DNA of 64,000 nt from Ereboglobus sp. (GTDB taxonomy: Bacteria > Verrucomicrobiota > Verrucomicrobiia > Opitutales > Opitutaceae): positions 1-64,000 of the forward strand of contig JARKRC010000067.1 of NCBI GenBank assembly GCA_029974595.1. Direction: 5' to 3'. Positions within the stretch are counted from its first letter, which is position 1; each line of letters starts with the position of its first letter. A program made the position numbers and the translations under genes. Positions 25,741 through 32,532 of this stretch are shown piece by piece. Under the pieces are notes generated by a model that was given only the letters and a program-made list of their open reading frames with translations, did not search any database and was not told the origin of the DNA.

Positions 25741-26139
25741 TCAGGTTCCTTTCAAAGAATTGAACCATGCGGCGCAGAGATGTCCGAACCACACGGCAAG
25801 AAAACAGAGTGTGAAGGTGCCGATGGCGTTGCCTCCGGCCCGAAACCATTCGCCATCCTGGACAAGCGTCAGCGTTTGCAGGCTGAACGACGAATACGTC
25901 GTGTAGCCGCCGAGGATGCCGGTCATCACAAAGTGGCGCATTGTCCCGCCAACCAGCAGGCGTCCGTCGGGCGCGGTCAGGGTTGCAAAAAAACCGATGA
26001 CGAACGAGCCGGAAATATTCACGAGCAACGTGCCCCACGGAAATGTCTCGCCGAAGCGATGCGCGATCAGGCCGGAGAGCGCGAATCGCGCCATTCCGCC
26101 TATGCCGCTGCCGAGTGCTATCCAGAGATATTGAGCCAT
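25741..26139 (-). CDS. crcB: Fluoride exporter CrcB/FluC
   Basis: 132 aa with four membrane helices. Typical motifs: GSGIGGMARFALSG, FPWGTLLVNISGSFVIGF (the Asn and polar track), and GILGGYTTYSSFSLQT near residues 74-90. It forms a dual-topology dimeric F- channel in the inner membrane. The ATG at 26139 follows GTAGGAAAATC, whose AGGA is the likely ribosome site, and a fluoride riboswitch lies directly upstream. It heads a probable operon with DUF190, acpH, an SDR and dps. Confidence 0.95.
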   Translation of the reverse strand: MAQYLWIALGSGIGGMARFALSGLIAHRFGETFPWGTLLVNISGSFVIGFFATLTAPDGRLLVGGTMRHFVMTGILGGYTTYSSFSLQTLTLVQDGEWFRAGGNAIGTFTLCFLAVWFGHLCAAWFNSLKGT

Positions 26140-26143
26140 GATT

Positions 26144-26172
26144 TTCCTACGTGCGTTGATTCGCGGTAGGAA
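26144..26172 (-). promoter_or_regulatory. Expression platform: stem that hides the crcB ribosome site
   Basis: UUCCUAC, part of the aptamer's conserved 3' end, is exactly complementary to GUAGGAA, which contains the AGGA ribosome site of crcB (5 bases before AUG). Aptamer folding and this stem exclude each other, implying translational ON switching by fluoride. Confidence 0.7.
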
Positions 26173-26241
26173 TCATCAGCACCGGCTTTCGCCGGGCGGT
26201 TTTCCCATCCTCCGTGGACGGGACGGCAGGAATCCATTGCC
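26161..26241 (-). promoter_or_regulatory. Fluoride riboswitch (crcB motif) aptamer
   Basis: Read on the minus strand: first stem-loop GGCAAUGGAUUCCUGCC (compare the GG-n-GAUGG-n-UUC-n-CC consensus), a variable hairpin CCCGUCC/GGAUGGG, the conserved AACCGC, a GNRA-capped stem CCGGC-GAAA-GCCGG, and GCUGAUGAUUCCUACC, which carries the highly conserved UGAUG-n5-UAC. The pseudoknot GGAUU/AUUCC would pair at 4 of 5 positions with one U·U mismatch. Location 22 bases before the crcB start supports the call. Confidence 0.85.
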
Positions 26242-26326
26242 GTTGCGCCAACCCTGAATCACACCGGTTTGTTTTCAAGAACAAAGGATTTCGCCCTCCC
26301 CCGCTTCAATCGCGCGAGCCTCGCAA

Positions 26327-30674: not shown

Positions 30675-31889
30675 ATGAGAATCCGCGCCTTCAAAGGTCT
30701 TGTTCCGAAACCCGAGCTCGCAGCCGAAGTGGCTTGCGTGCCCTACGATGTCGTCAACACGGCGGAGGCCGCCGCGCTTGCCGACGGCAAACCGCACAGT
30801 CTGCTGCGTGTTGACCGCGCCGAGATCGCATTCCCGGCGGGCACCGACATTTACAGCGACCCGATTTACGCAAAGGCGCTCGAAATGTTTCAAAAGCTCC
30901 AGCGTGACGGCGCGCTCGTCCGCGAAACCGAGCCGTGCATCTACGTTTACCAGCAGCAAATGGGCGCGCACACACAGCGCGGCATCGTGACGCTCATGCA
31001 TGTCGATGATTACGACGCGGAGCTGATCAAGAAGCACGAGAAGACGCGCAAGGACAAGGAGGACGACCGCACGCGCCTCATCGACACGATCAGCGCCAAC
31101 ACCGGCCCGGTGTTCCTCACCTATCGCGACGCGCCCGCCGTCACCGCGCTCGTCAATGCGAAGACCGCCGAAAAACCGCTCCACGATTTCACCGCGCCCG
31201 ACGGCATCCGCCACACGTTCTGGCGCGTCGCCGGCGGCGCCGAGTGGATCTCGGCGTTTGGCGCCGTGCCCGTCACGTATATCGCCGACGGCCACCACCG
31301 CGTCGCGTCCGCCGCGCGCGTCGCCCGCCTTCGCCGCTCGCGCAACCCGAAACACAACGGCGCCGAGGACTACAACTGGTTCCTCTCCGTGCTCTTCCCC
31401 GCGAGCGAGCTGAAAATCCTTCCCTACAACCGCATCGTCGCCGACCTGAACGGACGCACGCCCGAGGCGTTTCTCGCCGAGGTGAAAACCGTGTTCGGCC
31501 TTGAGGAAAACGCGAACCCGTCGCCCGACGCGATTGGCCGCGTGAGCATGTATCTCGGTGGAAAATGGCATGGCCTGCGCTGCCCCGCCGACCCGAAGGC
31601 CGGCCCCGTTGACCGTCTCGACGTCAGCGTGCTGCAAAACCGCCTCCTCGCGCCCATCCTCGGCATCGACGATCCGCGCACGAGCAAGCGCATCGACTTC
31701 GTCGGCGGCATCCGCGGCACGGCGGAATTGACCAGGCGCGTTGACCGCGACGGCGGCGTGGCATTTTCGATGTATCCGGTGACAATCGGGCAGCTCATGG
31801 ACATCGCCGACGCCGGCGAAATCATGCCGCCGAAGAGCACATGGTTTGAGCCGAAACTGCGCTCGGGCCTCGCCATCCACACCTTTTGA
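30675..31889 (+). CDS. DUF1015 family protein
   Basis: 404 aa. MRIRAFKGLVPKPELAAEVACVPYDVVNTAEAAALA is the standard DUF1015 start, followed by TLMHVDDYDAELIKKHEKTR, YIADGHHRVASA near 215, FLSVLFPASELKILPYNR and the terminal VTIGQLMDIADAGEIMPPKSTWFEPKLRSGL. The family is wide in bacteria and sometimes neighbours serine metabolism; it resembles the ParB/Srx nuclease-kinase superfamily. Function here unknown. The start codon at 30675 fits the conserved opening. A strong terminator overlaps its stop. Confidence 0.92.
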   Translation: MRIRAFKGLVPKPELAAEVACVPYDVVNTAEAAALADGKPHSLLRVDRAEIAFPAGTDIYSDPIYAKALEMFQKLQRDGALVRETEPCIYVYQQQMGAHTQRGIVTLMHVDDYDAELIKKHEKTRKDKEDDRTRLIDTISANTGPVFLTYRDAPAVTALVNAKTAEKPLHDFTAPDGIRHTFWRVAGGAEWISAFGAVPVTYIADGHHRVASAARVARLRRSRNPKHNGAEDYNWFLSVLFPASELKILPYNRIVADLNGRTPEAFLAEVKTVFGLEENANPSPDAIGRVSMYLGGKWHGLRCPADPKAGPVDRLDVSVLQNRLLAPILGIDDPRTSKRIDFVGGIRGTAELTRRVDRDGGVAFSMYPVTIGQLMDIADAGEIMPPKSTWFEPKLRSGLAIHTF

Positions 31890-31915
31890 AAAGCCTGAAG
31901 ACCTTCAGGCTTTTT
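31889..31915 (+). terminator. Intrinsic terminator after DUF1015
   Basis: AAAAGCCTGAA, loop GACC, TTCAGGCTTTT: a perfect 11-bp stem with a T-run, starting at the last base of the stop codon and ending only 7 bases before the candidate preQ1 aptamer. Confidence 0.9.
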
Positions 31916-31922
31916 CACCAAT

Positions 31923-31956
31923 GCGGTTTCAACCACCCGCTAAAACAAAATTGAAC
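31923..31956 (+). promoter_or_regulatory. Candidate preQ1-I riboswitch
   Basis: The 34 bases before yhhQ fold as an H-type pseudoknot of preQ1-I shape. P1 is GCGG (31923-31926) with CCGC (31937-31940); the loop is UUUCAACCA; C31936 stands where the ligand-pairing cytosine belongs (the conserved ACCC). An A-rich strand UAAAACAAAA follows, and P2 is UCAA (31929-31932) with UUGA (31951-31954). P2's 3' strand lies 3 bases before AUG, so ligand binding would block initiation. The downstream gene family imports queuosine precursors, which supports the call. Confidence 0.7.
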
Positions 31957-32532
31957 ATGAACAATAATTCACCTGATGCCGCCGCGGGCGGCTCTTCATC
32001 GGCGCGTTTTGCGCTGCCCGTCCTGAGCATGGCGGGCGTTGTGCTGCTCTCAAACATCCTCGTCCAATACCCGATCAACGACTGGCTGACCTACGGCGCG
32101 TTTTCGTACCCGCTCACCTATTTCGTGACCGACGTGTGCAATCGCTGGGCCGGCCCCGCCCTCGCCCGCCGCGTCGCATGGGCGGGCTTCGTGACCGGCG
32201 TCGTGCTGTCGTTTGTGTTTCAAATCGAATGGCGCGTCGCGCTGGCGTCGGGCACGGCGTTCATCGTGTCGCAACTGCTCGACATCGCAGTGTTCAACCA
32301 GCTCCGCAAAAAAACGTGGTGGAAAGCGCCGCTGTGGGGCTCAAGCGCGGCGTCGGTGATCGACACGGCGATTTTCTTCTCGGTGGCTTTCGCGGGGGTC
32401 GAAGGCGTGAACTGGGTGCAACTCGGCGCGGGCGACCTCGCCGTGAAACTCGCGATGGCGATCGTCCTCCTCGCGCCGTTTCGCGTGATGATCGGCTGGC
32501 TGGGCCTCATGCCAAAAAATAAGAAGCGCTGA
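31957..32532 (+). CDS. yhhQ: Queuosine precursor transporter (YhhQ/VUT family)
   Basis: 191 aa with about five or six membrane helices. Family features: ILVQYPINDWLTYGAFSYPLTYFVTDVCNRWAGP (the VUT signature with the DxxN/R pattern), FIVSQLLDIAVFNQLRK and SVIDTAIFFSVAF. YhhQ imports preQ0/preQ1 for queuosine modification of tRNA. The ATG 31957 directly follows the preQ1-I-like RNA. Convergent with a SpoU methyltransferase gene that ends 6 bases away. Confidence 0.9.
   Translation: MNNNSPDAAAGGSSSARFALPVLSMAGVVLLSNILVQYPINDWLTYGAFSYPLTYFVTDVCNRWAGPALARRVAWAGFVTGVVLSFVFQIEWRVALASGTAFIVSQLLDIAVFNQLRKKTWWKAPLWGSSAASVIDTAIFFSVAFAGVEGVNWVQLGAGDLAVKLAMAIVLLAPFRVMIGWLGLMPKNKKR

Follow-up and report, generated by a model that had tools for sequence, protein, structure and literature searches.

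Class I preQ1 riboswitches (preQ1-I) fall into several types, and by the rule of a 2024 review they have AC or UC directly before the 3' strand of P1, with AC and not UC in type II (PMC11625349). The legend of Figure 2 in that review describes a C7+-G11-C30 triple above preQ1. Its list of phyla with type I members does not name Verrucomicrobiota, and type II is said there to spread similarly; its authors also anticipate translational riboswitches where organisms make no use of Shine-Dalgarno (SD) sequences (PMC11625349). The preQ1-I riboswitch on the E. coli yhhQ gene, a type III member, has a crystal structure (PMC10622847). In the literature collection searched, no paper linked preQ1 to Verrucomicrobia, Verrucomicrobiota or Opitutaceae.

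Here we describe a candidate from Ereboglobus sp., located in a window that denotes the whole 64,000-nucleotide stretch analysed. Reading the sequence between positions 31923 and 31955 (+ strand) gives an H-type pseudoknot with the anatomy of a class I preQ1 riboswitch, directly before a yhhQ gene. On the strength of its sequence and of the comparisons below, it is very probably a translational class I preQ1 riboswitch on yhhQ, best filed as type II.

Anatomy and surroundings of the yhhQ leader

The features of the locus, in window coordinates, are these:

30675 to 31889, + strand: upstream DUF1015 gene (PF06245, E 1.8e-100; start picked by eye)
31888 to 31915, + strand: terminator-like hairpin of 12 bp, its 3' arm ending in T5, 7 bases upstream of P1
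31923 to 31926, + strand: P1 5' strand, GCGG, identical in 4/4 genus genomes
31927 to 31936, + strand: aptamer loop of 10 nt, UUUCAACCAC, read from the sequence and matched to the type II members as described in PMC11625349 and PMC10622847
31928 to 31932, + strand: P2 5' strand, UUCAA, from sequence reading and structural alignment
31935 and 31936, + strand: predicted gatekeeper A31935 and predicted preQ1-pairing base C31936, the final base of the loop
31937 to 31940, + strand: P1 3' strand, CCGC; P1 is longer by one outer G-C pair in L010, the yhhQ leader of genus genome G002
31941 to 31950, + strand: A-rich loop L3, UAAAACAAAA, from sequence reading and structural alignment
31951 to 31955, + strand: P2 3' strand, UUGAA, from sequence reading and structural alignment
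31957 to 32532, + strand: yhhQ, queuosine precursor transporter (Vut_1; PF02592, E 3.1e-23; TIGR00697 above its curated cut-off)

Read 5' to 3', the element is GCGG UUUCAACCAC CCGC UAAAACAAAA UUGAA, followed by C31956 and the AUG at 31957-31959, from which a product of 191 residues is encoded. Several features of class I coincide here: a P1 of 4 bp closed beside the pocket by a G-C pair, an A-rich L3 and, after it, a P2 that pairs back to the loop as a pseudoknot, and linkage to a queuosine gene (yhhQ, by PF02592 and TIGR00697). A31935 and C31936 directly precede the P1 3' strand, as expected for class I and for type II, and this AC is present in all four genus rows. Type III is marked by a short pyrimidine-rich loop and the SD sequence AAGG in P2; the loop here has 10 nt with CAA, and the P2 3' strand is UUGAA without an SD. 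The initial annotation of this DNA had described a P1 of GCGG/CCGC, a conserved ligand segment ACCC and an A-rich connector; P1, the AC that ends the loop and an A-rich L3 can all be read directly. It had also drawn P2 as four pairs (UCAA/UUGA) ending two bases from the AUG; that pairing stands, but it can be extended to 5 bp (31928-31932 with 31951-31955), so that P2 ends one base from the AUG.

The spacing given in the initial annotation, 7 bases past a hairpin that follows DUF1015, agrees with a hairpin at 31888-31915 and a P1 that begins at 31923, and this hairpin is absent from the list of an automated terminator scan. The DUF1015-yhhQ spacers of the three other genus leaders (L010, L011, L012) are made of repeated CTGAAG/CTTCAG units and differ greatly in length between the species; the stretch of this type in the window (31888-31915) is short and terminator-like. 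Elsewhere in the window, a fluoride riboswitch (26160-26250, - strand; RF01734, 37.6 bits) lies directly before a CrcB/FluC-like gene (25741-26139, - strand; named by eye).

Conservation, relatives and detectability

The element stands directly before yhhQ in all four genus genomes, with GCGGTTTCAACCACCCGC exact in each. Among the four leaders, two of which are nearly identical, 31 of the 34 columns from P1 to the last base before the AUG are invariant. The flanking coding sequence has 234 invariant columns of 313 (binomial p 0.016), and the spacer just upstream of the element, gaps counted, has 9 of 192. All three variable columns sit in the L3 linker beside P1. Loss of P1/P2 pairing in homologous leaders, which had been named beforehand as a counterargument, was not found, the pairing being kept in 4/4 genus genomes. 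Because the genus helices hardly vary, covariation can come only from distant relatives. Among named relatives, Ereboglobus sp. PH5-10 and an Opitutaceae MAG stand closest. Elsewhere in the genus the 18-mer has four near matches with one or two mismatches (L034, L035, L036, L037), and L034 looks coding.

A strong YhhQ (E <=1.2e-51) is encoded in 15 of the 57 genomes of the relatives search. Four of these are the genus genomes, all with the element, and no element is visible by eye at the other 11 strong family loci (L013-L023). Across 80 named loci, the descriptor placed an element at the gene start only in L038 and L039; six further loci had loose matches that were off the start or had a poor L3. 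Viral contigs contained no relative and plasmids no DNA match.

More distant relatives occur elsewhere in the phylum. PF02592 is present in 111 of 387 Verrucomicrobiota genomes, and we examined 87 regions upstream of PF02592 matches with a loosened descriptor, a set without the PF02592 matches in longer proteins (about 640-760 residues) and without some family loci that had been covered before. These yielded at least eleven type II-like elements (L142, L151, L170, L172, L175, L176, L184, L169, L177, L180, L181) and at least three type I-like elements with UC before the P1 3' strand (L160, L167, L168); L142, L160, L169, L177, L180 and L181 were added by eye. Two descriptor matches, L159 and L165, were not convincing and were excluded from the alignment. 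L123 (987-1034, - strand), upstream of a yhhQ-family gene and with a loop of 12 nt, is a plausible further preQ1-I candidate and was likewise excluded from the alignment. The eleven differ at the typing position, with AC in seven, CC in L151, L170 and L176 and UC in L142, and since AC is found in only 7/11 we call them type II-like. An L3 ending in AACAAAA, as in the window, is common to seven of them, and CAAAA ends L3 in 11/11. At the place of C7, ten of the eleven have C (L175 has A) and all four genus rows have U.

In the structural alignment, the eleven relatives have G-C as the inner P2 pair where the genus has A-U, and the next two P2 positions also vary on both strands in several rows. 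Nine distinct loop/tail sequences give 27 inner cells, of which 22 are Watson-Crick; with the 3' strands shuffled the mean is 15.8 paired cells and the fraction reaching 22 is 0.0013, which is support and not proof, as shuffling ignores kinship and related rows are not independent. L142 and L151 retain only the inner P2 pair in this register.

We built a covariance model, R2, from the eleven type II-like relatives only, with rows chosen by descriptor and by eye and the genus excluded, and ran it on 14 family genomes. The best match of all 14 was the yhhQ leader of G002 (L010; 30.5 bits, E 1.3e-5), the next best having E 0.016. The window copy (genome G000) scored 15.3 bits, E 0.52 for its own genome, a score that by itself is not significant and that two other sites in G000 exceed; the leaders of G003, G000 and G001 together range over 15.1-15.3 bits, E about 0.5. 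Within the window, the top R2 match is the element. The E. coli yhhQ leader is not recovered by R2. A second model, R1, includes the genus and was trained on yhhQ-family leaders, so its recovery of such leaders is circular and R2 is the cleaner test. At E <1e-5, R1 matches 17 of 387 phylum genomes, of which 16 are sources of training sequences; among 384 class genomes, 1e-4 is passed by the two sampled members of the genus and by no others. The seventeenth match, L232 (about 1501-1544, R1 4.6e-6), has a long P1 and could be real; we set it aside, as no yhhQ-family gene was seen downstream.

The published family model, RF00522, has a gathering cut-off of 39 bits, which the element does not reach. 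The Rfam scan proposed in the initial annotation, which had named the lack of a covariance-model match as a counterargument too, gave zero matches in the window either at that cut-off or locally at E 10, and at the locus in its own genome the element is not among the 8 sub-threshold matches. However, the E. coli yhhQ leader has no RF00522 match even at E up to 10 and the model passes in 0 of 387 Verrucomicrobiota genomes, so the missing match says little. RF00522 finds two sub-threshold matches in these 387 genomes. One, L119, was judged by eye to be chance; the other, L118, is the type I-like element L160 (G155:C94), which scores 25.7 bits against the cut-off of 39 and has no obvious SD. On the minus strand of G155 the order is queF, type I-like element, transporter.

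A strict descriptor asked for a G-C-closed P1 of at least 4 bp with one G-U allowed, U after it and AC before its 3' strand, an L3 of at least 70% A ending in AA, and a P2 of at least 4 Watson-Crick bp. When the whole window was dinucleotide-shuffled 600 times and both strands were read, it occurred 7 times. Because the descriptor was written after the element had been seen, this count serves as a guide and should not be taken as a strict probability.

Translation start and queuosine pathway context

No SD motif precedes yhhQ at -20 to -4, in agreement with the initial annotation, which had seen no ordinary SD. In the genus UUGAAC is followed by AUG, with no SD in P2. In contrast, the P2 tail of ten of the eleven type II-like relatives has or runs into AAGG, GAGG or GAAGGAG, and that of L172 has GGAG. 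Long ORFs were scored for GGAG, GAGG or AGGA between -20 and -5 of their first ATG, which is only a proxy for the start, with -52 to -37 as control. In 384 kb of the 4.07 Mb own genome (stretches L260-L275 plus the window), the motifs occur before 20 of 190 ORFs and in 17 of 190 controls, which is no enrichment. The identical count gives 44 of 83 against 12 in the control for G135, which carries an SD-bearing element, 14 of 69 against 2 for G062 and 11 of 31 against 2 for E. coli. Even so, the own genome shows no SD signal where the same count detects one in G135, G062 and E. coli.

The genus also stands apart in the queuosine pathway. Full-length QueC matches (E 1.5e-56 or better) were found in 4/4 sister genera tested. 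The four genus genomes have weak QueC matches only, of 22.5-28.8 bits in frames of 470-593 residues, scores that exceed the Pfam QueC cut-off of 22 bits. We read these as another protein, because the sister genome G007, whose own QueC is strong, carries a weak QueC-type match as well (25 bits, 593 residues). The QueD-type family PF01242 is found in 0/4 genus genomes versus 4/4 sisters. The three genus genomes that are near-complete all have QueF and TGT; G002, at 65% completeness, has a match to neither, an absence that its incompleteness makes uninformative. The three near-complete genus genomes, then, have no clear QueC or QueD and have kept QueF and TGT. Because QueC and QueD are apparently missing while QueF and TGT are kept, YhhQ is probably the route by which the genus takes up preQ0 or preQ1, and this transporter would then be the precursor source of the genus. 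Such a setting fits feedback by a preQ compound on a salvage transporter. Three element carriers elsewhere in the phylum vary in this respect: G135 matches none of QueC, QueF and PF01242, G062 has weak QueC matches only and no QueF or PF01242, and G155 has QueC, QueF and PF01242. Since G155 combines all three with a type I-like element, the pairing of element and pathway loss is not a rule.

Proposed mechanism and comparison with known systems

The identification of the yhhQ leader as preQ1-I, made in the initial annotation, gains support from the anatomy, the conservation in 4/4 genus genomes, the relatives in the phylum and the pathway setting. From anatomy, conservation and gene context we infer ligand binding, a base triple and an effect on translation. 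At low preQ1, the pseudoknot would be open, leaving the A-rich leader and the AUG accessible, and ribosomes would initiate without an SD. When preQ1 is present, it would pair with C31936 and stack between G31926-C31937, the closing pair of P1, and a predicted ceiling triple of A31932-U31951 with U31928. The L3 adenines would then lock into P1 and P2 would close. The ordered pseudoknot, ending one base before the AUG, would block the 30S subunit from the start; with the 30S excluded, uptake of the queuosine precursor would, we propose, be turned down. Somewhat better than even, in our estimate, are the chances of a further reading, in which the leader represents an SD-free preQ1-I platform: in a lineage without an SD signal, the SD/anti-SD pairing of P2 would have been replaced by UUCAA/UUGAA at the AUG, and the C+.G-C ceiling by U.A-U.

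Other readings share much of this evidence. An identical riboswitch might mainly sense preQ0, which the genus would be likely to import given that it keeps QueF and has no clear QueC or QueD; this overlaps with the model above in all but the ligand. The abstract of PMC10622847 contrasts types II and III in their preference for preQ1 over preQ0, but the pattern described for the family in PMC11625349 is control by preQ1, the TGT substrate, and we consider preQ0 sensing unlikely. It is also conceivable that a preQ1-I aptamer acts here on transcription, by pausing or termination in the early gene, and not on SD-free initiation, since the type II member of B. subtilis acts by termination and pausing (PMC11625349). 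We think this quite improbable: P2 ends one base from the AUG, and the sole terminator-like hairpin seen nearby outside yhhQ (31888-31915) precedes the aptamer, so that the ligand would come too late to steer it.

The element might even be an accidental pseudoknot within a conserved leader whose only role is to leave the start region open and rich in A. Starts of this kind are frequent in hosts without SD use, and the nested part alone folds unremarkably (z -0.61, with 53 of 200 shuffles equal or better). However, P1, the AC before its 3' strand and both strands of P2 are conserved together while the L3 linker varies, and other genomes of the phylum show this architecture again on genes of that transporter family, making such an accident very improbable.

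If the SD-free reading is correct, the leader would exemplify the SD-free translational riboswitches predicted in the 2024 review (PMC11625349). It would be a small and testable example, for which the SD-bearing relatives on this gene family offer natural controls. The preQ1-I-like elements of Verrucomicrobiota stay under the Rfam cut-off (0 of 387 genomes pass), and in one genus, a small sample, the element is paired with an apparent loss of de novo preQ0 synthesis.

Compared with the described systems, the leader most resembles type II. Like the type II riboswitches of Thermoanaerobacter tengcongensis (Tte) and B. subtilis, it has AC before the P1 3' strand, an A-rich L3 and an H-type pseudoknot, and its loop has 10 nt as in Tte, where the closing pair is G5-C16 in the numbering of PMC11625349. 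Unlike in these two, P2 in the window is fully Watson-Crick, A-U rich, free of an SD and abuts the AUG, and the ceiling G-C with C7+ of Tte would be replaced here by A-U, with U at the place of C7. With the type III element of E. coli it shares the yhhQ gene, a UU that follows the P1 5' strand, an AC just ahead of the 3' strand and invisibility to RF00522. The E. coli loop, however, has 9 nt in our own reading and its P2 holds the SD sequence AAGG, whereas the window has 10 nt and no SD. The verrucomicrobial type II-like elements (L142, L151, L170 and eight others) share with it the GCGG/CCGC core of P1, the loop plan, the L3 ending in CAAAA and the gene family; unlike it, they have a 5-bp P1 and an SD-like sequence in or next to P2, with AC in 7/11.
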